Shown piece by piece: positions 5,566 through 34,345 of a stretch of DNA of 34,345 nucleotides. Below the pieces are notes generated by a model. It was not told where the DNA came from, searched no databases, and was given only the letters and a program-made list of their open reading frames with translations. A program made the position numbers and the translations under genes. Origin of the DNA: Dehalococcoidia bacterium (GTDB taxonomy: Bacteria > Chloroflexota > Dehalococcoidia > SHYD01 > SHYC01); NCBI GenBank assembly GCA_009693005.1, contig SHYC01000003.1:1-34345 (forward strand), given 5' to 3'. Position 1 is the stretch's first letter; each line of letters starts with the position of its first letter.

Positions 5566-5688
5566 TCAGAACTGAGGATTCATAACTGCCAATTCCTATA
5601 CTCCTTTGATGATGCCTTATCGTTAGTTCAACACAGAGGAGTCTAAGACCATCTATTATCTATTACACACGAGGCCCAGTTATTACGC

Positions 5689-7551
5689 ATGTACGTAATC
5701 GGCACAGCAGGACACGTGGACCACGGGAAGTCGGCGTTGGTACAAGCGCTAACGGGCATCGATCCGGACCGGCTCCGGGAGGAGAAGGAGCGGGGCATGA
5801 CCATCGACCTGGGGTTTGCCTGGCTCGCTCTGCCCAGCGGCAGGTCTGTCAGCATCGTGGACGTGCCCGGACACGAGCGGTTCATCAAGAACATGCTGGC
5901 GGGTGTGGGCGGCATAGACCTTGCCCTGCTGGTAGTGGCGGCAGATGAGGGCGTGATGCCCCAGACGGTAGAGCACCTCGCCATATTAGACCTCCTTAGA
6001 ATCCAGCAGAGCGTAATAGTGATCACCAAGAAAGACCTGGTGGACGACGAATGGCTGGGACTGATAGCCGACGACGTCAAAGAAACGGTGGAAGGCACTG
6101 TGCTGGAAGACTCGCCCATAGTATCAGTCTCCGCATATACCGGGGAAGGGCTGCCGGAGCTTGCCGCCCTCCTCGACGATCTTCTTGCCAACGCTCCAGC
6201 CAAGAAAGATATCGGCAGACCGCGTCTTCCCGTGGACCGGGTCTTCACCATAGCCGGCTTTGGCACCGTCGTCACCGGCACGCTGATAGACGGCACACTC
6301 ACGGTTGGGCAAGAGGTTGAATTACTGCCTTCTCGCATCAAGACAAGGATCAGGGGCCTACAGACCCACCGGCAGAAAGAAGAGATAGCTCTTCCCGGCA
6401 CCAGAGTGGCCGCGAACCTGACAAACGTATCTACTGATGACATATCTCGAGGCGATATCGTCACCTATCCCGGATGGCTCAGGCCCACGCAGCACATGGA
6501 TGTCAGGCTGAGGTTGCTGGAAGACGCTCCCTATCCCCTGCGCCACAACGCCGGAGTCACCTTTCACACCGGCTCCGCGGAGGCTGACGCCAGAATACGG
6601 CTGCTGGAGCAGGTAGAGGTGCTGCCTGGTGAGACCACGCTGGCCCAGCTAAGACTTAGCAGCCTTGTCGCGGTCGCCAAAGGCGACTTGTTTATCATCA
6701 GGTCCACCGAATCGACCCTGGGTGGCGGCGAGATAATAGACCCCTACCCCAAGCGCCACAGGCTCCTGCACGAAGAGACCCTTCAGCAGCTAAAAGCCCT
6801 GGAGAGCGGCTCCCGACAAGAGGTCTTGCTTGGCTTACTGCACAAGGAGGAGCCTTGCAAAGCCTCGGCTTTGAGTAGTCTGTCCGGTACGCCTGAGCAC
6901 GATCTGATGGCAACTCTGAAACTCATGACGGATGACAGCCAGTTGGTGGTACTCACTCCCGGAGAGTTAGATCACAACTCCACACTTATCTCTCATGAGG
7001 GATGGTCAAAGATAGAAGACAAGATCATTACGACCTTGGAGGGCTACCACAAGCAGCACCCCCTGCGGAGCGGCATGCCAAAGAGCGAGCTGCGGAACCG
7101 CCTCCAGCTCAACGGTCAGGCGGCAGTCGAGACCGTGGAGCGCGCCGTAAAGGGAGGGCTTATAGCTGAGGCGGGAAATCTGGTGCGTTTGCCATCCCAC
7201 AAGATCTCCCTCTCTTCGCGTCAGGAGACTCAGGTCAAGGACTTCTTGAGCGCGTTGATGGCCAGCCCCTATAGCCCGCCATCAGATATAACTTTAGACC
7301 CGGAACTGCTTGGTATGCTCACAGAAGAGGGCCAGATAGTTCGTATCTCTGACAACGTGATCTTCGCAAGGGAAGCTTACGGCCAGATGGTAAACAAGAT
7401 CACCGATGAAATAAAAACAAAGGGCAAGATCACCGTCGCCGAGGTGCGGGACATGTTCAGCACCAGCCGGAAATACGCCCTGGCCTTACTTGAACATCTC
7501 GACGACGAGAAGCTAACCCGGAGAGTGGGCGACGATAGGGTCTTGCGGTAA
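5689..7551 (+). CDS. selB: Selenocysteine-specific translation elongation factor SelB
   Basis: MYVIGTAGHVDHGKSALVQALTGIDPDRLREEKERGMTIDLGFAWL, DVPGHERFIKNMLAG, plus C-terminal winged-helix-like region. Confidence 0.93.
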   Translation: MYVIGTAGHVDHGKSALVQALTGIDPDRLREEKERGMTIDLGFAWLALPSGRSVSIVDVPGHERFIKNMLAGVGGIDLALLVVAADEGVMPQTVEHLAILDLLRIQQSVIVITKKDLVDDEWLGLIADDVKETVEGTVLEDSPIVSVSAYTGEGLPELAALLDDLLANAPAKKDIGRPRLPVDRVFTIAGFGTVVTGTLIDGTLTVGQEVELLPSRIKTRIRGLQTHRQKEEIALPGTRVAANLTNVSTDDISRGDIVTYPGWLRPTQHMDVRLRLLEDAPYPLRHNAGVTFHTGSAEADARIRLLEQVEVLPGETTLAQLRLSSLVAVAKGDLFIIRSTESTLGGGEIIDPYPKRHRLLHEETLQQLKALESGSRQEVLLGLLHKEEPCKASALSSLSGTPEHDLMATLKLMTDDSQLVVLTPGELDHNSTLISHEGWSKIEDKIITTLEGYHKQHPLRSGMPKSELRNRLQLNGQAAVETVERAVKGGLIAEAGNLVRLPSHKISLSSRQETQVKDFLSALMASPYSPPSDITLDPELLGMLTEEGQIVRISDNVIFAREAYGQMVNKITDEIKTKGKITVAEVRDMFSTSRKYALALLEHLDDEKLTRRVGDDRVLR

Positions 7552-15679: not shown

Positions 15680-17716
15680 TCAGTCCCTGAGGTGGTATGG
15701 TACATCTATTACCACTATGCCGGGATGAAACAGAAGAGCGGCCTTGAGACGCAAGGCCGTCTGGTTGTGGATCAGGTGCTCCCACCAGCGCCGCGGCACA
15801 TATTCAGGCAGGATGACCGTCACCGTATCGCTTGGATGCGTGTCTCGCACCGCGTCGATATAGGCTATAAGCGGATTGGTTAGGGACCGGAAGGGTGACT
15901 CGATGATGACTAGAGGCGCCTGCATCCCGAACTCCTGCCAGGACCTGCGGAACTTATCCGCTCTCTCCTCATCCTCAGCAACGTGGACCGCTATTATCTG
16001 CTCCAGAGCCGCGATGGCCTGAGCGTAGGCCAGCGCCTGCCTGGCTGGTAAGCCCAGATTAGCAATAGGAACAACCACCCTGAGGTGGATAGAACGCGGG
16101 TCCAAAGGTGTTTCAGGAGTGCTGGCCTCCGCTAAATGCAAGTAATGCCGGTGTATGGCCCACATTACACCAACGAGGATTGGTATGAGCACCATTACCA
16201 TCCAGGCCCCCAGGGCAAACTTAGAGACGCCTATTACAATGGCTACGCCTCCTGTGGCTGCAGCCCCAACACCGTTTACCGCAAGTCTTGCAACCCAGCT
16301 TCGTTCCTCTCTCCGCCGCAGCCACCAGCGCCTTACCAGCCCTGTTTGGCTCAAAGTAAAGGCAATGAACACACCTACGGTATAGAGTGGGATAAGGTTG
16401 GTGACGCTGCCTTCGTAGACCCAGACCAACAAAGCTGCTGTAAGGGACAAGACTATGATGCCGCTGGTGAAAGCCAGACGGTCACCCCTGAACATGAACT
16501 GGCGGGGTAGATACCGGTCCTGGGCTAAGATAGAGGCCAGACGTGGGAAGCCGTTAAAGGCGGTGTTACCCGCTAACACCAGCAGCAGCGCAGTTGAGAA
16601 TTGCAAGAGGTAGTAGAACCAGTTCTGCCCTGTAAAGGCCCGTGCTATCTGGCTCAGCACCGTCTCCACTTCATGAGGGTCTGGCACTACACCAACCCGG
16701 CCTGCCAGAAAGCTTAGTCCGGCGAATATGGTGGCGAATAAAGCTCCCATTATGATCAAAGTCGTCTGAGCGTTACGCACCTCGGGCTGCTGAAAAGAAG
16801 GTACACCATTTGATACCGCTTCTACTCCCGTTAATGCGACCGAACCTGAGGCAAAAGCGCGGAACACTAGCAGCAGAGTCAGTGGCGCAGCGGTATGGGC
16901 GGTAGTCCATTCTTGTGGCGCCTGATACTCTGGCGCATCGCCAGTCAAAAGTCGATACATTCCGAAAGCCACCAGGCTAAGCACACTCAGAAGATACACA
17001 TAAGTAGGCGCCATAAATACCTTACCCGACTCCCGAACACCTCGCAGGTTCACGATGGTCATGAGCGCAATGACTATTACGGCAAAGAGCACCCGTCGGT
17101 CGTGCAGCCCCGGAAAGGCAGAGGTCAGAGCAGCTATTCCCGCCGACACAGATACCGCAACGGTAAGAACATAGTCAGTGAGCAGGGCAGCAGCAGCGAC
17201 CAGCCCAGCTATCGGCCCCAAATTCTCATAGGCCACTATGTAGCTGCCACCACCTCCAGGATACGTAGCAATAACAACACGATCACTTAACACAACTATA
17301 GCAAGTATCAGTATGATGGCCAGGGTAATAGGAACGGTGAGCGTAAGCGCGGAGACGCTAGCCATTATGAGAACACGCATTATCTCTTCGGTCGCGTAGG
17401 CGGACGAGGATATGTTGTCTGAGGCGAAGAGAGATAGTCCCCGCGGGATGCCTACGCGCTCTGACAACTCGGCAGCGCTGGGAAGAGGAGTTCCGAAAAT
17501 CGTTCGCCCAAGGTTAGACAATATACGGCCCGAATAACCTTTCGGCGCAGGGGGGCGTGGAACGATCAGTCCGGGTCGGACGGTGCGGAAAGATTGTTGG
17601 CGGGCTATACGTATAACTTGATCACCAGGCTTGGCGCCGCGTATTACCTCTTTCCACTCAAGGCCGGAGTCTGAGGGCGTATTTGGCGGGTCATTATCGG
17701 AGCCTGGTAACACCAT
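15680..17716 (-). CDS. APC superfamily amino-acid permease with C-terminal soluble domain
   Basis: GIPRGLSLFASDNISSSAYATEEIMRVL, TYPGGGGSYIVAYENLG, multiple TM helices, C-term IHLRVVVPIANLGLPARQALAYAQAIA. Confidence 0.88.
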   Translation of the reverse strand: MVLPGSDNDPPNTPSDSGLEWKEVIRGAKPGDQVIRIARQQSFRTVRPGLIVPRPPAPKGYSGRILSNLGRTIFGTPLPSAAELSERVGIPRGLSLFASDNISSSAYATEEIMRVLIMASVSALTLTVPITLAIILILAIVVLSDRVVIATYPGGGGSYIVAYENLGPIAGLVAAAALLTDYVLTVAVSVSAGIAALTSAFPGLHDRRVLFAVIVIALMTIVNLRGVRESGKVFMAPTYVYLLSVLSLVAFGMYRLLTGDAPEYQAPQEWTTAHTAAPLTLLLVFRAFASGSVALTGVEAVSNGVPSFQQPEVRNAQTTLIIMGALFATIFAGLSFLAGRVGVVPDPHEVETVLSQIARAFTGQNWFYYLLQFSTALLLVLAGNTAFNGFPRLASILAQDRYLPRQFMFRGDRLAFTSGIIVLSLTAALLVWVYEGSVTNLIPLYTVGVFIAFTLSQTGLVRRWWLRRREERSWVARLAVNGVGAAATGGVAIVIGVSKFALGAWMVMVLIPILVGVMWAIHRHYLHLAEASTPETPLDPRSIHLRVVVPIANLGLPARQALAYAQAIAALEQIIAVHVAEDEERADKFRRSWQEFGMQAPLVIIESPFRSLTNPLIAYIDAVRDTHPSDTVTVILPEYVPRRWWEHLIHNQTALRLKAALLFHPGIVVIDVPYHLRD

Positions 17717-17755
17717 GTAATGAACTCTTATTCCTGCTTTGTGGGGGCCAGCCTT

Positions 17756-17776
17756 AAAATCTTTTCGAAAGATTTT
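17756..17776. terminator. Hairpin between MBL-fold gene 3' end and permease 5' end
   Basis: AAAATCTTT TCG AAAGATTTT, perfect 9-bp stem with 3-nt loop. Confidence 0.5.
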
Positions 17777-17807
17777 GTCGTATCTAATAAGACAACGAAT
17801 AAGGCAA

Positions 17808-18467
17808 TTATATACTCAACCCTAGAAACAGCTCTGCGCCAGGCAGAAAGAAAGGGTTGTACTGTTTCTCCTCACCAACCGTCGTGGGCGGGCCATGGCC
17901 AGGGTATATTACCGTATGGTCCGGCAGCGAGAAAATCTTATTCTTGACGGAGGTTATCAACGACCGTCCCGAGCCTCCCTGCCCCTCAAACCTTCCAATG
18001 GAGTTCTGGAAAAGCGTGTCCCCCGTAAATACTCCACCGTCCACGTACAGGCAGGTACTGCCGGGCGTGTGCCCTGGGGTATGCAGCACCCTTACCTCAA
18101 TAGTCCCTACCATAATAGTGGAACCATCCTGGAAGTACTCATCAGGCTCCGGCGAAGGGGTCGCCCTGGCTCCGTAGCTGCTGTGAGCAAGCCTGGCGAA
18201 CAAAGGAACATCATCCGGATGGATCACGAGCTTGGCGCCGGTGTTCTCTCTAATATAAGCATTATTGAATATATGGTCTGAGTGACCGTGAGTATTGAAA
18301 ATATACTCCAGCTTTAGTTGACGCCGCTGTATGAAGTCAAAGAGAGAATGGCTTTGCATGGTGGGGTCAACCAGCGCAGCCTTTCCGGAGACGAGGTCGG
18401 CGATTATGAAAACGCCATTATCCGTCGGGCCAACGCCATAGAAGGGATAGATAGTTGGCTCAGGCAC
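17808..18467 (-). CDS. MBL-fold metallo-hydrolase (hydroxyacylglutathione hydrolase-like)
   Basis: NTHGHSDHIFNN, VLHTPGHTPGSTCLYV, FTGDTLFQNSIGRFE. Confidence 0.9.
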   Translation of the reverse strand: MPEPTIYPFYGVGPTDNGVFIIADLVSGKAALVDPTMQSHSLFDFIQRRQLKLEYIFNTHGHSDHIFNNAYIRENTGAKLVIHPDDVPLFARLAHSSYGARATPSPEPDEYFQDGSTIMVGTIEVRVLHTPGHTPGSTCLYVDGGVFTGDTLFQNSIGRFEGQGGSGRSLITSVKNKIFSLPDHTVIYPGHGPPTTVGEEKQYNPFFLPGAELFLGLSI

Positions 18468-19065
18468 CAGGCTGCTCCAGAAATATCTGCCTCACCCTAT
18501 CATAATCTTCCGGAGTATTCAGGTCTTCAAGGGCCAGAGGCGAGTCTACCTCCACGGTAACTATTTCATCCGAATGCCGGGTCACAACTTCGCGAATGCC
18601 CAGGTTTTCCTCGGTTACTTTCGACATCTCGTCTATCAACAGGCCGGAAAAGACAGTGGGATGCCCTCTTCGGCCGTGAAAGGTAGGAATTGTTATCAGA
18701 GCATTGGCAGACCTGTGGGTCTCCAGTATCGCTTTCACGAGGGAGCTTGGCCTTGGTTGGTCTACAGACAGAAGGATCACGGCCTCTGTTCCATCCTTAA
18801 GGACCTCAGCCCCAGCCCTTACGGAGCTGGCTCTTCCCTCTTTGTATCTGCCGTTGATAACCACCACCACGTCCAGATCGACTAAAGAGTCCTGCACCTG
18901 CTCAGCCAGGTGGCCCAAGACAGCTACAATATAATTTGCGCCGGCATCTCTTAGCTGGCGCACCTGGTACTGTACTAGAGTTTCGCCGTTCCAAGGGAGA
19001 AGAGGCTTAGGTGACCCCATCCTCGTGGATTCGCCGGCAGCCAATAAGAGAGCGGCAATGGACAC
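18460..19065 (-). CDS. MocA/MobA-like nucleotidyltransferase (molybdenum cofactor cytidylyltransferase-like)
   Basis: ALLLAAGESTRMGSPKPLLPWNGETLVQYQVRQL; next to CoxS/CoxM-like genes; overlaps the MBL-fold gene by 8 nt. Confidence 0.85.
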   Translation of the reverse strand: MSIAALLLAAGESTRMGSPKPLLPWNGETLVQYQVRQLRDAGANYIVAVLGHLAEQVQDSLVDLDVVVVINGRYKEGRASSVRAGAEVLKDGTEAVILLSVDQPRPSSLVKAILETHRSANALITIPTFHGRRGHPTVFSGLLIDEMSKVTEENLGIREVVTRHSDEIVTVEVDSPLALEDLNTPEDYDRVRQIFLEQPGA

Positions 19066-19127
19066 GTTCTGGAAAACTCCTTTTGGCGTGCAGCATTCAG
19101 ACCCTGAAACTACATACTCTGTTATCC

Positions 19128-19155
19128 GTAGGAGCGCATAGATATGCGCCCCTAC
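19128..19155. repeat. Intergenic palindrome
   Basis: GTAGG AGC GCATA GA TATGC GCC CCTAC. Confidence 0.65.
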
Positions 19156-19209
19156 ATTTCCGGCAATCTCGGCCCTCTAGCATATGGACGCGCGATCTTT
19201 TATGGGTGG

Positions 19210-19677
19210 TTACATCCGGGAAGAAGCTGCCTGAATAGCCTCTACGATCTTGGTGTATCCGGTACAGCGGCACAGGTTGCCCGCTATGCCGTATCTGATC
19301 TCTGCCTCCGTGGGATGGGGATTTCTGTCAAGAAGGGCCACTGACGAGACGATCATACCGGGTATACAGAAGCCGCACTGGAGAGCTCCGAACTCAACAA
19401 ATGCCGCTTGCACCGGATGCAATACGCCGTTCTTTGCTATACCTTCTACTGTCGTGATATCTCTGTTCTCAGCCTCACCTACCAGCACCAGGCAGGTGGT
19501 AACGGGAGCGCCATCCAGCAGCATTGTACAAGCTCCACAGTCTCCGGTGCCGCAACCCTCTTTAGAGCCGGTAAGACCCAGGTCTTCTCTAACCACATCC
19601 AGTAAGGGCCGGTTGGGCTCGGTATATACCTCGTACTCGCTGCCGTTTACCTTTAGCTTAAAACTCTGCTTTGCCAT
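19210..19677 (-). CDS. (2Fe-2S)-binding small subunit of a xanthine dehydrogenase/CO dehydrogenase-family enzyme (CoxS-like)
   Basis: GSKEGCGTGDCGACTMLLDGAPVTTCL and CGFCIPGMIVSS...GNLCRCTGYTKIVEAI. Confidence 0.95.
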   Translation of the reverse strand: MAKQSFKLKVNGSEYEVYTEPNRPLLDVVREDLGLTGSKEGCGTGDCGACTMLLDGAPVTTCLVLVGEAENRDITTVEGIAKNGVLHPVQAAFVEFGALQCGFCIPGMIVSSVALLDRNPHPTEAEIRYGIAGNLCRCTGYTKIVEAIQAASSRM

Positions 19678-19706
19678 CTTATGTCCACCTCAAGAATATT
19701 TCATAA

Positions 19707-20588
19707 CTACCTGGTAGTTCTGACTCCGATTGCATCCACGGCCTGCCTCAGACATCTAATAGCCAGGACTTTCACAAGCACGTGGCGAAACTCTGCAGAG
19801 CCGCGCATGTCTGTAATCGGACGGGCCTCGCCAGAGGCGATCTGCCCCGCTTGCTCATATACCGCTTCGGAGGGTTGTTTGCCAACCAGGTACTCCTCGG
19901 TCTTTGTAGCTCTCAGAGGCACCGGCGCTACAGAGGCGAGACATACCCGAGCGTGGCTTATCGTGTTATTGCTGTCTAACCCCAAGTACACGCCAACCCC
20001 TGCAATGGCTATATCCAGCTCCTTGCGTGGGCAGTGTCTAATGTATACACCGGCGCTGTTTTGCGTAGGGGTTGGGACCCTAACTTCGGTAAGTATCTCA
20101 TCCGGCTTTAGCGCCGTCCTGCCAGGTCCCTCAAACACCTGCCACATTGGCATGGTCCTGGAACCACCTGGACCAACGATACCAACTTCAGAATCCATTA
20201 CTATGAAAGCCGGTACGGCATCTGCGGAAGGGGCCGCATTACAGACGTTTCCACCTACAGTAGCCAGGTTCATGGTCTGTAAAGAGCCTATTAGCTCGGC
20301 ACCCTGGGCCAGAACATTGAAGCGCTCATTAATTAGAGGGTGTTCTGCAACTTGCGCCATGAGGGTACCTGCCCCAATCTTTAGCCCGTCTCCATTATCG
20401 AAAGATATGCCCCGCAGCTCTTTGACAAGAGAAAGGCTTACTATATATTTTGGGTGACGTCCCCTCTCTTTCATCTGCGGTATCAGATCCGTACCGCCTG
20501 CTAAGATTTTCCCACCTTCCCCTTTTTCTCGGAGTAGAGCCACAGCCTCCGCCACACTGGTAGGCCTGTAGTATTCAAACCTGTACAT
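19707..20588 (-). CDS. FAD-binding medium subunit (CoxM-like)
   Basis: FEYYRPTSVAEAVALLREKGEGGKILAGGTDLIPQMKERG, ATVGGNVCNAAPSADAVPAFI. Confidence 0.95.
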   Translation of the reverse strand: MYRFEYYRPTSVAEAVALLREKGEGGKILAGGTDLIPQMKERGRHPKYIVSLSLVKELRGISFDNGDGLKIGAGTLMAQVAEHPLINERFNVLAQGAELIGSLQTMNLATVGGNVCNAAPSADAVPAFIVMDSEVGIVGPGGSRTMPMWQVFEGPGRTALKPDEILTEVRVPTPTQNSAGVYIRHCPRKELDIAIAGVGVYLGLDSNNTISHARVCLASVAPVPLRATKTEEYLVGKQPSEAVYEQAGQIASGEARPITDMRGSAEFRHVLVKVLAIRCLRQAVDAIGVRTTR

Positions 20589-23016: not shown

Positions 23017-23045
23017 TTGACACTGGTAAATACTGTTGATATATT
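23017..23045 (+). promoter_or_regulatory. Strong sigma70-like promoter upstream of the SBP array
   Basis: TTGACA-17 nt-TATATT, about 230 nt before the first SBP start. Confidence 0.55.
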
Positions 23046-23277: not shown

Positions 23278-25014
23278 ATGTATCAGGGTATCAGGAGAAA
23301 CACGAAAGTTGTCCTCGGGTTGGTCTTGGGAGCGTCGCTGATGCTGGCAGCTTGCGGACCGGCGGCGCAGCAACAGCAGCCTGGCGCTGACACGCCTATT
23401 GAGAAGAAGCTCGAGGGCGGCACACAGGTAAAAACCGCTGAGGTGGCAAAGCAGCGCGGCGGTAAGCTGGTCATGGTTGGGACCGGTCAGTTTGGAAACC
23501 CGAACGACCCGCATCTGCCAGCCACCGCGACCGGCCGCGTATACTCGGTCCCCACTGGCAACGGGTTACTAAAAAGGGATATGTATAACAACTACTCTAT
23601 TGCCGCCGATCTGGCCAAGAGCTGGGACGTATCAGCGGATGGAAAAAACTATACTTTCAAGCTCAACGAGGGAGTAAAGTTTCACAACGTGGCTCCCGTC
23701 AACGGACGCGAATTTACCTCTGAGGATGCTAAATACACGCTTCTGAGGGTAACCGCTAACCCAACATTAATATTGGAGAAGTGGAAGCCGCGCTTCCAAC
23801 GGGCGCTAGAGTTCGGCGAGATCGAAAGTATTGATACTCCAGACAAGTACACCATGATAGTGCACCTAAAGAACGCCTACGCTCCCTTCATGGATGCGGT
23901 AGCAAACCCGGGCACGCTGGTTCTTCCGCGGGAGTTCGTGGAGAAGTTCCCTGAGAAGATCGTAATCGAGGGATCGATCGGCACCGGGCCATATATGCCC
24001 GTGGAGTACAGAAACCAGCAGATAGCCTCCTACAAGAAGAACCCGGACTACTGGAAAAAAGATTCGGCAGGCGGACAACTTCCCTATTTAGATGAACTGG
24101 AGTCTCTTTACTTCGCAGACATTCAAACAGAGATGGCTGCCTTCCGGTCAAGACAGATCGACGTTTCTTCCAGCGGCAGCTTGATCGGCAAGGGTACGGT
24201 GCAAGCGATTCAAAAGGATGACGCAAAGGTACAGGTATTTCGCACTCCTGTCGCCAGCATTACCAATTTCCGCTTCAATACGAAGTTCAAGGCGTTCCAG
24301 GACGTCAGAGTGAGACGCGCCTTTCACCTGGCAATCGACCGACACCAATTCGTTGACCTGGTTACAGAAGGACTGGGAGTGGTTTCAGGGCCTGTTACGT
24401 CACCGGTGTATCAGGATGTGGCGAATACCATGGACTGGCTGCTCCAGCAGCCCGGCTACCGAAAGGACAAGAAAGAGGACCTCGCCGAGGCCAAGCGCCT
24501 CATGAAGGATGCCGGCTATGAGATCGGATTTGAGACAGGCTTCATGTTAAGCTCCAGCACCCAATCCGGCGACTGGGCCGCGCTCCTGGCAGACCAGCTC
24601 AAGCCGCTTAACGTAGCTTTGAAAACAGACATAGTAGATTATGCCGGTCAGTGGCTGCCGCGCGCCACCGCTGGCGAGTTTGAACTCGCCTGGATGTCCC
24701 ACACCGTTGGTACAGACGTGGATAGCGTAATTGCATCGCATCTCTTGGGCGGTGCTCCGAGGAACTACGGAAAGTTCACCAGTTCCAAGCTGGACGATCT
24801 GGTTAAGAAAGAGCAGCTGGCTACTAGCAAGGAGGAACGCAAGAAGTGGGCGCAGGAGGCCGAGAAAGTTATATTTGAAGAGGCTCCAATGCTCTTCCTG
24901 TACACGAACACCAACACAATGCTGGCGCAGCCCTGGGTGCACAACGCCGCCGATGGAAACATCATCGGGTCATCAACCAACATGGTGGAGCAGGTCTGGC
25001 TGGAAAAGAGGTAG
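23278..25014 (+). CDS. Family-5 ABC transporter substrate-binding lipoprotein, paralog 1
   Basis: Lipobox LMLAACGPAA; LAKSWDVSADGKNYTFKLNEGVKFHN...GREFTSEDAKYTLLR...GTGPYMPVEYRNQQIASYKKNPDYWKKD. Confidence 0.93.
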   Translation: MYQGIRRNTKVVLGLVLGASLMLAACGPAAQQQQPGADTPIEKKLEGGTQVKTAEVAKQRGGKLVMVGTGQFGNPNDPHLPATATGRVYSVPTGNGLLKRDMYNNYSIAADLAKSWDVSADGKNYTFKLNEGVKFHNVAPVNGREFTSEDAKYTLLRVTANPTLILEKWKPRFQRALEFGEIESIDTPDKYTMIVHLKNAYAPFMDAVANPGTLVLPREFVEKFPEKIVIEGSIGTGPYMPVEYRNQQIASYKKNPDYWKKDSAGGQLPYLDELESLYFADIQTEMAAFRSRQIDVSSSGSLIGKGTVQAIQKDDAKVQVFRTPVASITNFRFNTKFKAFQDVRVRRAFHLAIDRHQFVDLVTEGLGVVSGPVTSPVYQDVANTMDWLLQQPGYRKDKKEDLAEAKRLMKDAGYEIGFETGFMLSSSTQSGDWAALLADQLKPLNVALKTDIVDYAGQWLPRATAGEFELAWMSHTVGTDVDSVIASHLLGGAPRNYGKFTSSKLDDLVKKEQLATSKEERKKWAQEAEKVIFEEAPMLFLYTNTNTMLAQPWVHNAADGNIIGSSTNMVEQVWLEKR

Positions 25015-25123
25015 GCATTGCAACGGCCTGCGGCTTTAGATTTCGTGAAGCGCAGGACTGCAGTTTGATGACTCACAAAGATTTTATATAGTCATACAGA
25101 TGATGTAAGAGGAAACAAAACGT

Positions 25124-26872
25124 ATGGGTTACCAGAATAGTTTAGCAGTTCGGGTTCTACAGATGATGACTGTGGTGATGATCTTGCTTGTCGTCGCTTG
25201 CGGGCCAGCCCAGCAAACGGGTGCCCCAGTAACGGGCGCTGACGTGCCTCTCGAGAAGAAACTTGAGGGCAGCACGCAGGTAAAGGCCGCCGAAGTGGCC
25301 AAGCAGCGCGGCGGGAAACTGGTGATGTCGCAAAGCAGTGCCTTCGGCAACCCCAATGACCCGCACTTGCCGGCCACCGCCACTGGCCGCATCTACTTCC
25401 AGCCAGTAACAAACGGCATACTGAAGCGAGATCTCTACGAAAAGTACGCGATAGCCGGCGATCTGGCCAAGAGCTGGGAGCTGTCGAAAGACGGCCTGAC
25501 TTACACCTTCAAGTTTAATCAAGGCGTCAAGTTCCAGAATGTTCCTCCAGTGAATGGGAGGGAGTTCACCTCCGATGACGCCAAATACTTGCTGATGAGA
25601 ATAACCGCCGACCCGTCGGTTGTTTTGGACAAGTGGAAGCCGCGCTTTCAAAGGGCGATCGATTTCGGCAAAATTGACACCCTCGATACTCCCGACAAGT
25701 ATACTCTGGTTGTCAAGCTGAAGGAGCCTTATTCTCCCTTCCTTGATGCCGTCGCAAACCCTGGTACCGTCGTGATACCCAAAGAGTTTGTGGAAAAGTT
25801 CACCGAGAAGGTCGTGCTGGAAGGAGCGGTAGGGACCGGACCCTTCATTCCGGTGGACTATAAGAACCAGCAGATAGCCTCCTATAAGAAGAACCCCGAC
25901 TACTGGAAGAAAGACTCAGCGGGTGGACAGCTGCCGTACGTCGACGAGCTTAACTTCCTGTACTTCGCAGACCTACAGACCGAACTTGCTGCTCTGAGGT
26001 CGGGCCAGTTGGACGTTAGCCGCAGTGCCGCCGATATAAACAAGGGTATGGTCACCGGACTGCAAAGGGATGTCCCGAACGTTCAGGTATTCCGCACTCC
26101 CGTTGCCAACATTACCAACTTCCGTTTCAATACAAAGGTCAAGGCCTTCCAGGATGTTCGAGTAAGGCGGGCCTTCCACCTGGCTATCGACCGCTACCAG
26201 TTCTCTGACTTGATTACGGAGGGTCTGGGCGTTGTGTCAGGTCCTGTCACCTCACCGGTATTCGCGGATGTGACCAATACAACGGAATGGCTCCAGCAGC
26301 AGCCCGGCTACAGAAAAGACAAGACTAAGGACATGGCTGATGCGAAGCAGCTGATGAAGGACGCGGGCTATGGTGACGGCCTTACGCTTGGCGCTTTGGG
26401 GTATATTTCAGCAGGCGTTTCGAGCGCCGATGTTCTCGCACTGTTGGCTGACCAGCTGAAGCCCCTGAATATCACGCTCAAATCGGAGACGGTAGACTAT
26501 GCCGGACAGTGGTTGCCGCGTGCCACCGCCGGCGAGTTCGAGTTGGCATATATGTCACATACCGTGGGCACAGACGTAGACAGTGTCATTGCGGCGCATC
26601 TGCTTGGCGGGGCACCCAGGAACTACGGAAAGTTCAGCAGTCAAAAGCTGGACGACCTGATCAAAAAAGAACAAGCCGCGATTACCTCGGAGGAGCGCAA
26701 GAAGTGGGCACAGGAGGCAGAGCAGGTGATATTTGATGAGGCCCCAATGCTCTTCTTGTACACTAATGTAAACACCATGTTAGCCAGCCCATGGGTAAGA
26801 AACGCAGCAAGCGGCGCCATAATTGGTTCAGAAGCTAACTTAGTGGAGCAGGCATGGTTGGACAAGCACTAA
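25124..26872 (+). CDS. Family-5 ABC transporter substrate-binding lipoprotein, paralog 2
   Basis: Lipobox LLVVACGPAQ; full-length similarity to paralog 1. Confidence 0.93.
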   Translation: MGYQNSLAVRVLQMMTVVMILLVVACGPAQQTGAPVTGADVPLEKKLEGSTQVKAAEVAKQRGGKLVMSQSSAFGNPNDPHLPATATGRIYFQPVTNGILKRDLYEKYAIAGDLAKSWELSKDGLTYTFKFNQGVKFQNVPPVNGREFTSDDAKYLLMRITADPSVVLDKWKPRFQRAIDFGKIDTLDTPDKYTLVVKLKEPYSPFLDAVANPGTVVIPKEFVEKFTEKVVLEGAVGTGPFIPVDYKNQQIASYKKNPDYWKKDSAGGQLPYVDELNFLYFADLQTELAALRSGQLDVSRSAADINKGMVTGLQRDVPNVQVFRTPVANITNFRFNTKVKAFQDVRVRRAFHLAIDRYQFSDLITEGLGVVSGPVTSPVFADVTNTTEWLQQQPGYRKDKTKDMADAKQLMKDAGYGDGLTLGALGYISAGVSSADVLALLADQLKPLNITLKSETVDYAGQWLPRATAGEFELAYMSHTVGTDVDSVIAAHLLGGAPRNYGKFSSQKLDDLIKKEQAAITSEERKKWAQEAEQVIFDEAPMLFLYTNVNTMLASPWVRNAASGAIIGSEANLVEQAWLDKH

Positions 26873-27190
26873 AACTACTGCCGAATTATTGACAGTAATC
26901 TTAGCAGTTGATAGAATCACTTAATTTCCAATTTAATTGGGCAACCTTATAAAAACTATAGCGTAATATCTCGATTGGGTGCAGGAAGATATCGATCAAA
27001 TCACTGTTATCGCAGGGACTATAACGTCTCATAACGCTGCCTTTTGGGGTTCCAATAGGTCGACAAGAACTCTACAGATTCATATCTGACAGCTGGCGGA
27101 AGCAGGAAGCTGATCTACGTATAACATAATTGCAACTTATATCGAAATCTGTGAAGAATAAACTAATGATGGTTGAGGTTAAGAGAAAAC

Positions 27191-28912
27191 ATGCTTAAGA
27201 GTAGTTCTTTAGGGGTCTGGAGTCTCCTGGCAGCAGTTGCGGTAATGGCTGTCCTCTTCTCTGGTTGCGGCCCGGCAGCACAACAAGCCGGGACCGAAGA
27301 AGAGAAGACGAATCGTGAGAAGCTTCAGGATACCGGCGCAAAGGCAGCCGACCAGTTGGAGATAGCCAAGGAACGGGGTGGCAGACTGACGATCCCCGAC
27401 TCAGGGGCTTTTGGCAACCCTAATGACCCTCATCTGACCGCCACAGCCACCGGCCGGACATATTCAATGCCCGTAACCAACGGAATACTCAAGAGAAACA
27501 TCTATGACAATTTCGCCATTACCCCTGACCTGGCCAAGAGTTGGGAGGTCTCGAAAGACGGCCTGACCTACACCTTCAAGTTCAACCAGGGTGTGAAGTT
27601 CCATAATGCAGCTCCAGTGAACGGCCGTGAGTTTACCTCCGAAGATGCCAAGTATACCCTGATGCGAATGACCGCCGACCCATCGGTTATATTGGAGAAG
27701 TGGAAGCCGCGCTTCCAGAGAGCTCTGGACTTTGGCAAAATGGAGGGAATGGAGACCCCTGATAAATATACCCTGGTCGTCAAGCTCAAAGAGCCTTACG
27801 CTCCCTTCATTGACGCCGTTTCCCAGCCGGGCACCCAGGTTCTCCCCAGAGAGTTCGTAGAGAAATTCCCCGAGAAGATTGTCCTTGAGGGCATGATCGG
27901 CACCGGGCCATTTATCCCGAACGACTATAAGCATCAGAGCATAGCTTCCTTCAAGAAGAATCCCGACTACTGGAAAAAGGACTCTCAGGGAGGGCAGCTC
28001 CCCTACCTGGACGAAGTTGCCGTGTTGTATTTTGCTGACGTCCCGGCTAAATATGCCGCTTTCAGGGCAAGGCAGCTCGACGTAACCGGTGTAACCGGGG
28101 AGATCATAGCGCCCATGATGAGGGACGAGCCCGGGGTCAAAAACTACTTCGTGCTCGCCCAGTCTATAATGGTCTACCGCTTCAACATGAAGTTCAAGCC
28201 CTATCAGGACGTCAGGGTCCGTAGAGCGATTCACCTGGCCATAGACCGCCAGCAGTTCGCGCTGATTATCGGACAAGGTCTGGCGGTCCCCACCGGCCCG
28301 GTAACCCCTGCGTTCCGCGATCTGGCAAACACCAACGAATGGCTTCTACAGCAGCCTGGCTACAGGCAGCCGAAGGACCAGGATATAGCCGAGGCCAAGA
28401 GACTCATGAAGGAGGCGGGATACGAGGAGGGTTTTACGACCCAGGCCCTGTTTAACACCAACACTGGCGACCATATTTCCCTCCTGCAAGACCAGTTAAA
28501 GCCGCTAAAGATAACGCTTAAGTCGGAGCAGGTAGACTATGCAGGACAGTGGGTGCCTCGCGCCACCGCCGGGGAGTTCGAGCTTGCCTATATGGCCCAC
28601 TCTGTGAGTACCGATGCCGACAGCGTTCTTTCAGCCCATCTTCTGTCTGGCGCCCCTAGGAATTACGGCAAGTTCAGCGACCCTATTCTGGACGACCTGA
28701 TCCTGAAGCAGTCCCGAGCGGTAACTCTGGAGGAACGGAGAAAATGGGCGCAGGAGGCGGAAAAACGGGAGCTAGAGGTTATGCCTATTGCCTTCGTCTA
28801 CGCTAACGCCTATGCTGACTTGGCCCATCCCTGGGTACACAACGCCGGCGATGGTCCGCTGGCCGGCTCTTTACCATTCATGGCAGAGCAGGCATGGGTG
28901 GAAAAGCATTAA
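27191..28912 (+). CDS. Family-5 ABC transporter substrate-binding lipoprotein, paralog 3
   Basis: Lipobox LFSGCGPAA; full-length similarity. Track start 27173 is TTG; ATG at 27191 is more plausible. Confidence 0.92.
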   Translation: MLKSSSLGVWSLLAAVAVMAVLFSGCGPAAQQAGTEEEKTNREKLQDTGAKAADQLEIAKERGGRLTIPDSGAFGNPNDPHLTATATGRTYSMPVTNGILKRNIYDNFAITPDLAKSWEVSKDGLTYTFKFNQGVKFHNAAPVNGREFTSEDAKYTLMRMTADPSVILEKWKPRFQRALDFGKMEGMETPDKYTLVVKLKEPYAPFIDAVSQPGTQVLPREFVEKFPEKIVLEGMIGTGPFIPNDYKHQSIASFKKNPDYWKKDSQGGQLPYLDEVAVLYFADVPAKYAAFRARQLDVTGVTGEIIAPMMRDEPGVKNYFVLAQSIMVYRFNMKFKPYQDVRVRRAIHLAIDRQQFALIIGQGLAVPTGPVTPAFRDLANTNEWLLQQPGYRQPKDQDIAEAKRLMKEAGYEEGFTTQALFNTNTGDHISLLQDQLKPLKITLKSEQVDYAGQWVPRATAGEFELAYMAHSVSTDADSVLSAHLLSGAPRNYGKFSDPILDDLILKQSRAVTLEERRKWAQEAEKRELEVMPIAFVYANAYADLAHPWVHNAGDGPLAGSLPFMAEQAWVEKH

Positions 28913-29095
28913 TAAGTACAGGACGGTCTGCGTCTTTGATGCAGCAGCATTCTCTCACAACTTACTTTTATACAAACGTGGTAATAAGGAGGATGGTGCT
29001 TATAGTTGTTGGTTGTTAATGTCCAGGACAGTAGGGCAGAATAAAGTTGAGACGGCTCACATTTTTAGTTTCTAGGGGGAAAGAAAATCGATAAT

Positions 29096-30823
29096 ATGCA
29101 CAACACTCTTGTAAGCCGAGTCTTTATAATGCTAACTCTGGCAGGAGCGCTAGCCGTAATGGCGGCATGCGGCCCGGCAGCACAGCCTTCCGAACCTACG
29201 GCGAGCAAAGAGCCGCCGAAAATGGAGGAGCGGCCCGCAGTAGAGTTAGCAAAGGAGCGGGGTGGCAAGTTGGTGGTGACTGAGACCAGCGCCTTCGGCA
29301 ATCCTAACGATCCCCACCTGGTGGTGACAGCCACCGGCCGGGTCTACTCTATGCCGGTGGTCAACTGGTTGCTAAAGCGCGACATTTATCAAAAGGGCTA
29401 TCCGATAGTGGCGGACCTTGCCAAGAGTTGGGAAGTCTCCAAGGACGGCCTAAAATATACCTTTAAGCTCCAGGAGGGCGTGAAGTTCCATGACGTCGCG
29501 CCTGTAAATGGCAGGGAGTTTACCTCTGAGGATGTAAAGTACAATCTGTTGAGGCTCACGGCTGATCCATCCGTCATCGTGGACAAGTGGAAGCCGCGTT
29601 TTCAAAGAGCCGTAGACTTCGGCAAGATCAAGAGCATAGACACTACAGACAAATATACCGCCGTAATCAATCTTGATCAGCCTTATGCGCCCTTTGTAGA
29701 CGCAATCTCTCATCCCGGAACGGCGATTCTTCCAAAAGAGTTTGTCGAGAAGTTCCCAGAAAAGGTTATCCTCGAGGGAATGGTCGGCACCGGCCCGTTC
29801 ATGCCGGGAGGTGAGTACAAGAACCAGCAGATAGCCACCTACAAGAAGAACCCAGGCTACTGGAAAAAGGACTCTGCCGGCGGCCAACTGCCGTACCTGG
29901 ATGAGCTCAACCTCCTGTATTTCTCGGACATCCAGTCGGAGCTAGCAGCCTTCCGGTCCAGGCAGATAGATACAACCAGAACCAGTTCCGACATAAAGGC
30001 CAGCACCGTGAACTCCATCAAGAAAGACCAGAGCGACGTACGAGTATTCTATACCCCAACAACGAACATCACTAACTATCGCTTTAACATGAAGTTTAAG
30101 CCGTTCCAGGATGTCAAGGTCCGGCGGGCTATTCACCTGGCCGTCGACCGGCACCAGTATGTGGACTTGCTCCTTGAAGGCGCAGGGTCGATCTCAGGCC
30201 CCGTTACTTCGGCGATATATCCTGATGTCGCCAACACAATGGACTGGCTGATGCAACAGCCCGGATATCGGAAGGACAAGACCCAGGACCTGGCGGAGGC
30301 GGTGCGGCTGATGAAAGAGGCCGGCTACCCGGACGGCTTCGAGGTAGGAATGATGACCTCAACGGGAGCACAGCCGGGAGATACCATGGCGCTGCTCCAG
30401 GACCAGCTAAAGCCCTTAAAGATCACCATAAAGCCGGAGCAGGTGGACTATGCGGGCCAGTGGCTTCCGCGCGCCACACAAGGAGAGTTTGAGTTCGCCC
30501 ATATGAACCATACCGTCACGACCGACGTCGATAGCGTGATCGGAGCGCACCTGGTTTCCGGTGCGCCCAGAAACTACGGCAAGTTCGATGACCCGGTGCT
30601 CGACGATCTCATCAAGAAGGAACTAGCCTCCGTTACCCTGGAGGAGCGCAGGAAGTGGGCGCAAGAAGCAGAGAAACGGATCTTCGATGTTGTGCCGATG
30701 CTGTTCCTATACACCCGTGTGAATACTCTCTTGGCCCATCCCTGGGTCCATAACGCTGGAGATGGCCCAGTACCAGGCTCTACACAATACGTTGTAGAGC
30801 AGGCGTGGGTAGAAAAACATTAG
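29096..30823 (+). CDS. Family-5 ABC transporter substrate-binding lipoprotein, paralog 4
   Basis: Lipobox VMAACGPAA; full-length similarity. Confidence 0.93.
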   Translation: MHNTLVSRVFIMLTLAGALAVMAACGPAAQPSEPTASKEPPKMEERPAVELAKERGGKLVVTETSAFGNPNDPHLVVTATGRVYSMPVVNWLLKRDIYQKGYPIVADLAKSWEVSKDGLKYTFKLQEGVKFHDVAPVNGREFTSEDVKYNLLRLTADPSVIVDKWKPRFQRAVDFGKIKSIDTTDKYTAVINLDQPYAPFVDAISHPGTAILPKEFVEKFPEKVILEGMVGTGPFMPGGEYKNQQIATYKKNPGYWKKDSAGGQLPYLDELNLLYFSDIQSELAAFRSRQIDTTRTSSDIKASTVNSIKKDQSDVRVFYTPTTNITNYRFNMKFKPFQDVKVRRAIHLAVDRHQYVDLLLEGAGSISGPVTSAIYPDVANTMDWLMQQPGYRKDKTQDLAEAVRLMKEAGYPDGFEVGMMTSTGAQPGDTMALLQDQLKPLKITIKPEQVDYAGQWLPRATQGEFEFAHMNHTVTTDVDSVIGAHLVSGAPRNYGKFDDPVLDDLIKKELASVTLEERRKWAQEAEKRIFDVVPMLFLYTRVNTLLAHPWVHNAGDGPVPGSTQYVVEQAWVEKH

Positions 30824-30980
30824 TGGTTTCCTACAACTTCGGTAAGCTCTAGCAGGCAAAGCTATAAGAAGCTAGAGATACGCGTTTTGTAGGCGTCGGT
30901 GAGGGAAGGAGAAACTATGGAGGCAGCGCTGTCGATGGGGATAAGGCCCTTAGATAGCGCTGCCTTGTCTATTTATCAAG
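30812..30980 (+). repeat. Structured spacer repeat, copy 1 (downstream of paralog 4)
   Basis: CTCTAGC/GCTAGAG (30847-30853/30871-30877) and AGGCAGCGCT/AGCGCTGCCT (30921-30930/30956-30965), then ttgtctattta; matches copy 2. Confidence 0.85.
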
Positions 30981-31069
30981 AATACTTAGTGGTGTAGGGG
31001 GTTAGAAGTGCCCGGCAAACAGAACACCAAGCCAATGCTTTCTCAGCGCTGTGTCCATCGCGCGGCGAG

Positions 31070-31129
31070 GGGACCGTGAGCGACTCCATCGTCGGCATGG
31101 CAGAGCAGGTCTGGTTGGAAAGACACTAG
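31070..31129 (+). pseudogene. C-terminal relic of a seventh SBP paralog
   Basis: GTVSDSIVGMAEQVWLERH* aligns with intact C-termini (e.g. GPLSDSLPFIVEQAWVEKH*). Confidence 0.75.
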
Positions 31130-31194
31130 GTGAGCCATATTAGCATTGTCCCATCAATAAGACAGAATAAAGGTGGAGGAAAAATAAAGAGAGT

Positions 31195-32907
31195 ATGTAC
31201 AAGAATAGAATAGAGTCCATAGTCCCCCTCTTTTTGGTTATTCTGGTGGCGCTGGCTATAGTCGCCTGCGGCCCCTCGGCCCAGCGTCCTCAGGAGGATG
31301 CTGTGACGACAACAAAAGAGGCGAAGAGCGCTGGGCTGCCAGCCGCCGACAAACTAGAAGTAGCCAAAGAACGTGGCGGTCTATTGAAATACCCTGCAAG
31401 TGCATTTGGCAACCCCAACGACCCACACCTGACAGCCACCGCCAACGGACGGGTCTATTCCATGCCCGTTACAAACGGGATCATCAAGCGAGACATCTAC
31501 AACAACTTTGCTATTGCCCCAGACCTGGCAAAAAGCTGGGAGGCATCCAAAGACGGTTTCACCTACACCTTCAAGTTCCAGGAAGGAGTGAAGTTCCACA
31601 ACACTCCTCCTGTCAACGGCAGAGAGTTCGTTTCAGAGGACGCCAAGTATACCCTCTTGAGACTGACCGCTGATCCATCAGTGATAGTAGAGAAGTGGAA
31701 GCCTCGTTTCCAAAGGGCCCTGGACTTCGGGGCCATCCAGAGCATTGAGACTCCAGACAAGTACACCATGGTGGTCAATCTCAAGGAGCCATATGCGCCT
31801 TTCCTGGACGCGGTATCTCAACCTGCAAGCCAAGTGATTCCCAGGGAGTTCGTCGAAAAGTTCCCTGAGAAGATCATCACTGAAGGTATGATCGGCACAG
31901 GCCCTTTCACCCCCAACGAGTACCGAAACCAGAACATAGCCTCCTACAAAAGGAACCCTGCTTACTGGAAAAAGGACTCCGCTGGAGGCCAGCTACCATA
32001 CATCGATGATCTGGCCCTCCTCTTTTTCGCCGACGAACAGACACGCTACGCCGCCTTCAGAGCCAAGCAGATCGACTTGACCTCAGTAACTGGCGAGGCG
32101 ATGAAGTCTATTATGAAGGACGAGCCAAATGTAAGGGCTCAACAGGTGCCATTTAACTCCGTATTCAACTTCCGCTTCAATATGAAGTTCAAGCCCTTCC
32201 AGGACGTCAAAGTCCGTAGAGCAATGCATCTGGCCGTTGATAGACAACAGTTCGCGGAGATAATTGGGCAAGACCTGGCGATCCCTGCCGGGCCCGTGAC
32301 TCCTATTTTCCCTGAGATGGCCAATACCATGGACTGGCTCCTATCTCAGCCAGGTTACAGGAAAGACAAGACCCAAGACCTTGAGGAAGCCAAGCGCCTC
32401 ATGAACGAGGCCGGCTATGGGGACGGCTTCGAGGTCAAGGGCATGTTCTCACTCAACACTGGTGACCACATCTCCTTGCTCCAAGACCAGCTTAAGCCCC
32501 TAAAAATCACGCTGAAAGCCGATCAAGTGGACTACGCGGGCCAGTGGGTGCCCAAAGCCACCGCTGGAGAATTTGAGCTATCCTATATGACTCACGTCTT
32601 CAGCACCGACGCAGATTCCATCTTGACTGCTCATCTTACTACTGGAGGTCCCAGAAACTATGGTAAGTTCAGCGACGCTGCTCTTGATGACCTCGTAATG
32701 AAGCAGCGGACCGCCACCAACCTGGAGGAACGAAGAAAGTGGGCACAGGAAGCCGAGAAGCGGGCGTTGGAAGTGCTACCGTTTATATTCGTTTATTCAC
32801 CTTTTAACACCAGCCTGGTCCAGCCCTGGGTGCACAACGCCGGCAATGGCCCACTTTCCGACTCACTGCCTTTTATTGTAGAACAGGCCTGGGTGGAAAA
32901 ACATTAG
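31195..32907 (+). CDS. Family-5 ABC transporter substrate-binding lipoprotein, paralog 5
   Basis: Lipobox LAIVACGPSA; full-length similarity. Confidence 0.93.
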   Translation: MYKNRIESIVPLFLVILVALAIVACGPSAQRPQEDAVTTTKEAKSAGLPAADKLEVAKERGGLLKYPASAFGNPNDPHLTATANGRVYSMPVTNGIIKRDIYNNFAIAPDLAKSWEASKDGFTYTFKFQEGVKFHNTPPVNGREFVSEDAKYTLLRLTADPSVIVEKWKPRFQRALDFGAIQSIETPDKYTMVVNLKEPYAPFLDAVSQPASQVIPREFVEKFPEKIITEGMIGTGPFTPNEYRNQNIASYKRNPAYWKKDSAGGQLPYIDDLALLFFADEQTRYAAFRAKQIDLTSVTGEAMKSIMKDEPNVRAQQVPFNSVFNFRFNMKFKPFQDVKVRRAMHLAVDRQQFAEIIGQDLAIPAGPVTPIFPEMANTMDWLLSQPGYRKDKTQDLEEAKRLMNEAGYGDGFEVKGMFSLNTGDHISLLQDQLKPLKITLKADQVDYAGQWVPKATAGEFELSYMTHVFSTDADSILTAHLTTGGPRNYGKFSDAALDDLVMKQRTATNLEERRKWAQEAEKRALEVLPFIFVYSPFNTSLVQPWVHNAGNGPLSDSLPFIVEQAWVEKH

Positions 32908-33065
32908 TGGTTTTCTAGGGCTTTGGTAAACTCTAGCCGGGCAAGTTATCACAAGCTAGAGATACACGTTTACTGGATGTCGGTGAGGGAAGGAGAAGCT
33001 ATGGAGGCAGCGCTGCCTAAGGGGATAAGGCCCTAAGATAGCGCTGCCTTGTCTATTTATTAAGA
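32896..33065 (+). repeat. Structured spacer repeat, copy 2 (downstream of paralog 5)
   Basis: CTCTAGC/GCTAGAG (32931-32937/32955-32961) and GGCAGCGCT/AGCGCTGCC (33006-33014/33040-33048); same order and spacing as copy 1. Confidence 0.85.
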
Positions 33066-33160
33066 CAGTTTGTGTATTGTAGTAAGACGCCGATTTCGGC
33101 CAAAGATAACCAGCTTTATCGCGTAAGGAGTGAGGTATGACATAAATTACGGGAAGAGTC

Positions 33161-33193
33161 ATTAAGGGCTTGAACCTGTAGATAGCGCTGCCT
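33161..33193 (+). repeat. Partial third copy of the spacer repeat 3' portion
   Basis: attaagggcttgaacctgtagatagcgctgcct resembles ggggataaggccctaagatagcgctgcct. Confidence 0.5.
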
Positions 33194-33257
33194 GCTGCAG
33201 ATGAACATGTATAAAGGCCATCGTCAAGCTAGTGTGATTATCGGATAGGAGGGTGAA

Positions 33258-34196
33258 ATGTTTGGCAAAAATAGACTGCCGAAGTGGATGTATTTAGGGG
33301 TCGTCGTCGCAGCCCTACTATTCGGCGCATGCGGCCCAGCAGCGCAAAAATCATCGGAGACCACAGGGGAAAGCAAGGTCCAGGAAGCGATACAAAAGAC
33401 CGGGGCACAATCATCAGACCAGCTCACGGTAGCCAAGGAGAGAGGTGGTAAACTCACCATCCCCGATACATCGATGTTTGGCAACCCAAACGATCCGCAT
33501 CTGCCGGCCACCGCAACCGGTCGCGACTATGCTATGCCTGCAACCAACGCGATTCTAACGAGAAACATATACGATAAGTTCTCTATCGTCCCTGATCTAG
33601 CCAAGAGCTGGGAGGTCTCCAAAGACGGCCTCACGTATACCTTCAAGTTCAACCAAGGAGTGAAGTTCCAGAACACCCCTCCAGTCAACGGTCGCGAGTT
33701 TACCTCCGAAGACGCCAAATATACTTTGATGCGAGTCACCGCGGACCCCTCCGTCATCGTGGAGAAGTGGAAGCCGAGGTTTCAGCGTGCCCTCGACTTC
33801 GGCAAATTAGATGGTATGGACACGCCTGACAAGTACACTCTGGTGGTCCGTCTTAAAGAGCCCTACGCCCCATTCTTAGACGCGGTTGCCCACCCGGGAA
33901 GCGGTATTCTGCCAAGAGAGTTCGTGGAGAAGTTCCCAGAGAAGGTTATCCTCGAGGGAATGATCGGCACCGGTGCCTTCATGCCCACGGAATACAGGAA
34001 CCAGAACATAGCCAGCTTCAAAAAGAACCCTGACTACTGGAGGAAGGACTCTCAGGGTGGCCAGTTGCCTTACATTGACGAGGTATCCTTCTTGTATTTT
34101 GCAGACATTCAAGCTCAATACGCCGCTTTTAGGGCGCGACAGATAGATATAACCAGCGTAACTACCGGATTGTCTACCATAGACTCCATTAAGAAG
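33258..34196 (+). pseudogene. Family-5 substrate-binding lipoprotein, paralog 6, interrupted by an IS element
   Basis: Lipobox LLFGACGPAA; SBP similarity ends at TTGLSTIDSIKK, immediately before the IS end; remaining C-terminal half absent from window. Confidence 0.85.
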
Positions 34197-34345
34197 TGGG
34201 GTTACCCCGTTTCGACGGACAGTTTTGTTAGGAGGCAAAGGCGGGATTCCTTTCCGCCATTCTAACACGTTCGTACTCTGCTGGAGACCTATACTCCAGT
34301 GAAGAGTGAAGCCGTCGTCGGTTGTAGAAGACCTCGATGAACTCG
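34197..34345 (-). mobile_element. IS3-family-like insertion sequence, one end (continues beyond window)
   Basis: Starts tggggttaccccgtttcgacggacag; encodes the transposase C-terminus on the minus strand. Confidence 0.85.
34228..34345 (-). CDS. IS3-family transposase, C-terminal fragment
   Basis: Reverse-complement translation [38 protein letters not shown]; (Y/F)NRRRLHSxLxYxSPxEYE is the IS3-family integrase C-terminal signature. Confidence 0.9.

Follow-up and report, generated by a model that had tools for sequence, protein, structure and literature searches.

Five intact genes and one broken gene for family-5 substrate-binding protein (SBP) lipoproteins lie head-to-tail on the + strand at positions 23278-34196 of the window, i.e., the whole stretch of DNA analyzed here, which is the complete 34,345-nucleotide contig C113 in the draft genome (G000; 1.77 Mb, 146 contigs, estimated 74% complete) of a Dehalococcoidia bacterium. 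We assess, with a probability of roughly 0.55, that these genes (S1 to S6) encode lineage-specific, diverged receptors for carboxylate ligands, which serve a shared ABC importer of the Opp/Dpp type encoded elsewhere. What we infer within this reading is the docking to the permease pair of another contig (C115), the class of the ligands, and the differences in ligand between the receptors. A first-pass annotation had suggested specificity modules that feed a shared remote transporter, and, docking apart, this is the best supported explanation because sibling receptors elsewhere in the genome are without permeases, their sister clade adjoins a permease pair, and the Opp-type ATPases are unlinked.

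The array and its intact receptors

The intact open reading frames (570-582 aa, 23278-32907) all match PF00496 (SBP_bac_5) with E < 1e-63 and with 217-232 bits against a curated cut-off of 32.4, and are thus full-length members of the family. They are S1 (23278-25014, 578 aa, E 6.8e-68), with the lipobox LAAC and a modelled fold of the DppA type; S2 (25124-26872, 582 aa, E 9.3e-65), which is 71% identical to S1; S3 (27173-28912, E 1.2e-68), of at most 579 aa from a TTG start with an in-frame ATG 18 bp inside; S4 (29096-30823, 575 aa, E 1.3e-68); and S5 (31195-32907, 570 aa, E 3.5e-64). Spacers between the array genes measure 109-371 bp. The first-pass annotation had described six tandem family-5 SBPs of about 570 aa, which is right for these five; the sixth has only 313 aa and is cut by an insertion sequence (IS) at 34197. 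Its other observation, a lipobox in all six, was borne out: by motif, the cysteine falls at residue 25-32 in each of S1-S6, predicting export and a lipid anchor.

Neither a BPD_transp_1 permease nor an oligo_HPY ATPase was found on the window contig by profile searches, up to the contig end inside the IS. The earlier claim that no such gene lies between or beside the SBPs therefore stands for the contig, but the downstream side cannot be judged. A canonical opp/dpp operon, with a linked permease pair and ATPases, is present neither on C113 nor on the sibling contigs.

Pairwise protein identity within the five intact SBPs is 57-71%, and this bears on the possibility that the array is an artefact of assembly, as considered by the first-pass annotation itself, or of binning. 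The genome is a draft and the contig edge is a repeat, as such an artefact would have it, but copies that differ by 29-43% in protein form no near-identical repeat to mis-join. Moreover, the single-copy RecJ gene on the contig, which is the upstream neighbor of the array, has its nearest relatives in genomes of the same order, and comparable arrays occur in other genomes. An artefact is thus largely refuted and, in our judgement, extremely improbable.

A permease-free family with a permease-linked sister clade

A search of the genome for transporter parts, as the first-pass annotation had proposed, gave 23 hits to PF00496, 15 to PF00528 (permeases) and 3 to oligo_HPY (ATPases). Twelve of the SBPs, 53-73% identical to S2, make up a close family (type A), distributed over C113 (six), C4 (three), C10, C24 and C110 (one each). 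There is no permease match on any of these five contigs, including C10 with its 72.9 kb. In a tree of SBPs from this genome, from the class and from other sources, type A forms one clade (support 1.0) whose sister (0.984) is type B, i.e., the four tandem SBPs of C115, with a permease pair immediately 3' of them. Searches of the genome returned just three Opp-type ATPases: an OppDF-like pair on C40 (L056:7598-9636) and a lone copy near the end of C23 (L067:14017-14991). None of the three adjoins a permease, so that unlinked parts are already the rule in this genome. The pattern in the genome is one of several paralogous receptors and fewer permeases, with the parts unlinked.

These data also bear on whether the array is a multi-receptor operon cut short, with its own permease pair following behind the IS and the contig end. 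C115 offers a model for such an operon, the window ends in an IS just 3' of S6, and the genome is incomplete. However, the type A SBPs of C4 and C10 are immediately followed by an enoyl-CoA hydratase (ECH) gene, neither contig has a permease at any position, and a genome of the same order (G002) holds a comparable permease-free cluster beside RecJ. Besides, an IS inside S6 would part any downstream genes from the promoters of the array. We regard a truncated operon as unlikely. No relative could serve to reconstruct what follows the array, because no close SBP homolog was found outside G000 in 40 relatives, five same-order genomes and a GTDB pattern scan. The best outside homolog reached 34% identity over most of the length among the 40 relatives and 31% in the GTDB pattern scan; in the same-order genomes the best reached up to 37%, over partial length only.

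Within type A, S1 pairs with S2, S3, S5 and S6 form a group, and S4 groups with the SBP of C110, which confirms by both identities and tree the sub-types that had been read from sequence motifs (1/2 versus 3/5/6). Because these lines branch apart, the array is not just a series of recent duplicates. Where an estimate is possible, dN/dS is about 0.1, with synonymous sites near or at saturation. The phylogeny and dN/dS check proposed earlier thus resolved the clades, but site-wise dN/dS was uninformative owing to this saturation. Judged from these substitution patterns, the type A genes are old, maintained, and under purifying selection.

Fold, variability and specificity

The predicted model of S1 (pLDDT 86) has the DppA-type fold and aligns to DppA and relatives, AgaA among them, with a Foldseek E of 1e-38 and TM of 0.69-0.74 against solved structures. 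The array SBPs nevertheless score far below the NCBIfam equivalog cut-offs of DppA (100-115 bits vs 1005), OppA (78-98 bits vs 947) and NikA (TIGR02294; 103-127 bits vs 393), so that they can be placed in family 5 but not with any of these three. The solved structure that best matches the type A profile is AgaA (6hlx), at about 24% identity. The SBPs vary most over residues 291-320 and 413-430 (S1 numbering), where pairwise identity in the measured windows is about 33-34% against 61% overall, and the latter stretch aligns to about residues 343-360 of DppA, in the ligand-end region. Asp408 and Arg355 of DppA, which we take to be the residues holding the two ends of the dipeptide, are not conserved in HMMER alignments, the loop alignment being uncertain at about 22% identity. 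The variable stretches and the apparent lack of the peptide-end residues would fit divergent, non-dipeptide ligands.

The same data speak to whether the genes are redundant copies of one receptor that raise the dosage for a single ligand. The tandem layout, together with remnants and broken copies (see below), indicates frequent duplication and loss, as dosage copies would. But such copies are expected to be alike, whereas these are 57-71% identical with synonymous sites at or near saturation, and their variation is concentrated in two stretches. We consider mere dosage very unlikely.

Linkage of the siblings to CoA transferases and hydratases

A feature beyond the scope of the first-pass annotation is the enzyme linkage of the sibling loci. 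An ECH gene adjoins the SBP at all four other type A loci (4/4): it lies 3' of the SBPs on C4 and 5' of the SBP on C110 and C24, and on C10 two ECH genes lie 3' of the SBP and two CaiB/BaiF transferase genes 5' of it. The genome contains about 14 ECH genes, so that adjacency by chance has a probability of about 1% at any one locus and, if the loci are treated as independent, of about 1e-8 at all four.

Other genomes contain similar combinations. On contig C28 of G002 (19025-36169; L183, L184), the order is RecJ-SBP-CaiB-SBP-CaiB-CaiB-ECH-ECH-SBP, with no permease in the stretch examined. A second G002 locus reads SBP-SBP-permB-permC-CaiB-CaiB-ECH on one strand (permB and permC being the permease pair), and G002 contig C106 carries SBP-CaiB-CaiB-permB-permC. 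A relative from the same class (G031, C20) has SBP-permB-permC beside CaiB pairs, and G003 has tandem SBP runs of three and four, with no permease in the stretch examined. From these loci alongside the siblings in G000, we conclude that receptors, a permease pair, CoA transferases and hydratases are a recurrent set, the members of which are often apart. RecJ neighbors both the G002 C28 cluster and the window array, in differing relative orientation.

These neighborhoods suggest how the system may work. The lipid-anchored surface receptors would bind different but related ligands and pass them on to a permease encoded at another locus, for which the pair on C115 is the best candidate, and this pair would be powered by the OppDF-like ATPases of C40 and/or C23. 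The imported compounds would be carboxylic acids instead of classical dipeptides, as proposed because of the CaiB/ECH linkage of the siblings; they would be activated by CoA transfer through CaiB/BaiF, and the CoA esters would then be processed by enoyl-CoA hydratases.

A non-transport role of the receptors, e.g., in chemical sensing or surface scavenging, has to be weighed here. It has been proposed for orphan SBPs of the TTT type (PMC5994714), and it would suit the excess of SBPs over permease pairs, which is extreme in one genome of the class (G030). But in the stretches examined, no sensor kinase or chemoreceptor was recognized directly flanking the type A loci, the neighbors being catabolic enzymes, and in relatives, SBPs of this kind are found in operons that include permeases. 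We rate a non-transport role as rather improbable.

Several points weigh against receptors for a shared remote importer. The ECH/CaiB linkage is not visible at the array of the window itself. The type A loci are homologous, so that their ECH linkage is perhaps not fully independent, and common descent may weaken the chance estimate given above; this objection is less severe because other genomes also combine SBPs with CaiB/ECH. At 74% completeness, permeases may be missing from the genome, and immediately 3' of the array the contig runs out within an IS. Ligands of family-5 SBPs are very broad, including peptides, nickel, opines and haem, so that gene neighbors are a weak guide to ligand class. 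For ligand, docking and expression alike, the proposal draws on sequence and gene neighborhood.

Truncation of S6 and turnover of receptor genes

S6 (33258-34196, + strand, 313 aa) consists of the N-terminal half only, covering PF00496 profile positions 2-177 of 368 with 138.5 bits, and it ends at a junction at 34197. From there, the terminal part of an IS3-family element (34197-34345, - strand), coding for the transposase C-terminus, runs to the contig end, which lies within the element. Over 38 aa, the minus strand matches NF033516, the IS3 transposase model of NCBIfam (E 3.1e-6), below the full-length cut-off since the piece is a fragment; Pfam did not recognize this 38-aa piece. Another 14 contigs (C62, C143, C80, C75, C66, C140, C134, C72, C9, C138, C135, C131, C99 and C37) carry the IS end at or close to an edge, which makes 15 copies of this end, and the copies inspected have a common boundary with unrelated flanking DNA in each. 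Thus, an IS3-family element interrupts S6, and the assembly stops there as is expected of a multi-copy element; this element, lying at the ends of at least 15 contigs, probably explains much of the fragmentation of the genome. No candidate for the missing C-terminal half of S6 was found among the PF00496 matches of the bin. On C9, the IS adjoins the 3' side of a type B-like SBP that carries an in-frame TAG.

The spacer between S4 and S5 (30824-31194) holds the C-terminal remnant of a lost SBP copy at about 31031-31150 (+ strand), which was detected by tblastn with S3 residues 544-579 (E 0.008) and whose translation ends in …VSDSIVGMAEQVWLERH before the stop codon. The first 160 bp or so 3' of S4 are homologous to the first 160 bp or so 3' of S5, and damaged homologs are also present on C4, C32 and C9. 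The IS break and this remnant, like the enzyme linkage, had gone unremarked earlier. Taken together, the remnant, the homologous stretches after S4 and S5 and the damaged copies suggest a birth-and-death turnover of SBPs by duplication, although part of the damage could be sequencing error, the assembly being a draft. The third SBP on C4 (L055:9720-11464) is split over two frames; this frameshift either marks a genuine pseudogene or stems from faulty assembly.

Surrounding sequence

Sigma-70-like promoter matches of 11/12 lie on the + strand 5' of S1 (23017-23045) and 5' of S3 (26889-26917). Both are consensus matches only, and they are the two strongest of the 12 such sites found against 7.6 expected. 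RecJ and the array are preceded on the minus strand (15680-20588) by three other genes, coding for a CO-dehydrogenase-type FAD subunit (19707-20588), a metallo-beta-lactamase-fold protein (17808-18467) and an amino-acid-permease-like protein (15680-17716). At 5689-7551, the window encodes SelB, the elongation factor for selenocysteine. A tRNA scan of the window found no tRNA gene. As the bin contains no 16S rRNA gene, the class was judged to be probably Dehalococcoidia from one of the relatives (G017), which consists of one 1.5-Mb contig and carries 24 reductive dehalogenases.

Relation to known multi-receptor systems

The Opp system of Borrelia burgdorferi comprises the receptors OppA1-A5 (three in tandem and two elsewhere), the permeases OppB1C1 and OppB2C2, and one OppDF pair (PMC5736914). 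In this system, as would hold for the array, a few permeases and one ATPase pair are shared by several family-5 receptors that go back to duplication. Unlike it, the array has no permease at the locus, belongs to a clade of 12, and has siblings that adjoin ECH/CaiB genes; its ligands are also probably not peptides. A precedent for the use of a remote permease is MppA of E. coli, an orphan receptor that uses the Opp permease (PMC5736914). DppA, OppA and MppA have the fold and family in common with the array SBPs, as does AgaA, the Agrobacterium receptor for agropinic acid, a carboxylated opine, its low identity notwithstanding.

Large sets of orphan TTT/Bug receptors are known from Bordetella and Rhodoplanes, with 434 genes in the latter, and proposals for their function include both a membrane component used in common and a sensing role without transport (PMC5994714). 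The likeness lies in a lineage-specific expansion of orphan receptors that far exceeds the membrane components, and TTT ligands are organic acids. The receptor family differs, however (TctC there, PF00496 here), as does the type of transporter, which is ABC here. The principle of a shared importer is therefore already known from Borrelia and has been proposed for Bordetella and Rhodoplanes; the array differs in scale, in its separation from the permease and in the enzymes that neighbor its siblings. SAR202 and other Chloroflexi, of the same phylum as the array host, have many CaiB/BaiF genes that are thought to feed carboxylates into catabolism (PMC5395668, PMC6306507), and in the excerpts of those reports considered here, the transferases are not tied to family-5 receptors. 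In a limited literature search, neither the enzyme linkage nor an expansion of family-5 SBPs in Chloroflexi turned up, and the same goes for a relative with receptor numbers like those of G030.

In this 5.0-Mb genome, which belongs to the same class, a first look returned 368 PF00496 candidates (e.g., at L153-L170 and L211-L250) against 59 PF00528 matches; 118 of the 368 were scored, and all of these were reported as matches. A 1.09-Mb sample of G030, partly picked for SBP content, holds 118 SBPs (105 in long frames) and 7 permease pairs, and only 9 of the SBPs have a permease within 5 kb; contig starts taken by number alone gave 32 SBPs in about 0.39 Mb. Genome-wide, there are about 30 permease pairs, and the SBP count is comparable to the 434 TTT receptors of Rhodoplanes. 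Genes near the SBPs include those of UGSC-family, MmgE/PrpD, FAD-oxidoreductase and glyoxalase-like proteins, and on G030 contig C9 (L155-L159), many SBP genes alternate with genes of the first three kinds. One UGSC gene is split over adjacent frames (L156:4567-4884, 4906-6261), which may reflect UGA-selenocysteine read-through.

Implications for uptake in the class

More tentatively, and with somewhat less than even odds in our view, the array may be one instance of a class-wide design of many receptors and few pumps, in which a genome would hold as many as several hundred family-5 SBPs, arranged in modules with catabolic enzymes of the CaiB/ECH or the UGSC/PrpD type. If so, this would be among the largest receptor expansions in bacteria and would constitute the uptake side of the CaiB expansion of Chloroflexi, offering a partner for the many CaiB/BaiF genes, as far as the excerpts of the reports on them go (PMC5395668, PMC6306507). 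The breadth of uptake in these uncultured bacteria would then be set by receptor duplication, with the pumps staying few. Neighboring enzymes would predict the ligand class of a receptor, so that the ligands of hundreds of receptors could be guessed and the guesses tested.

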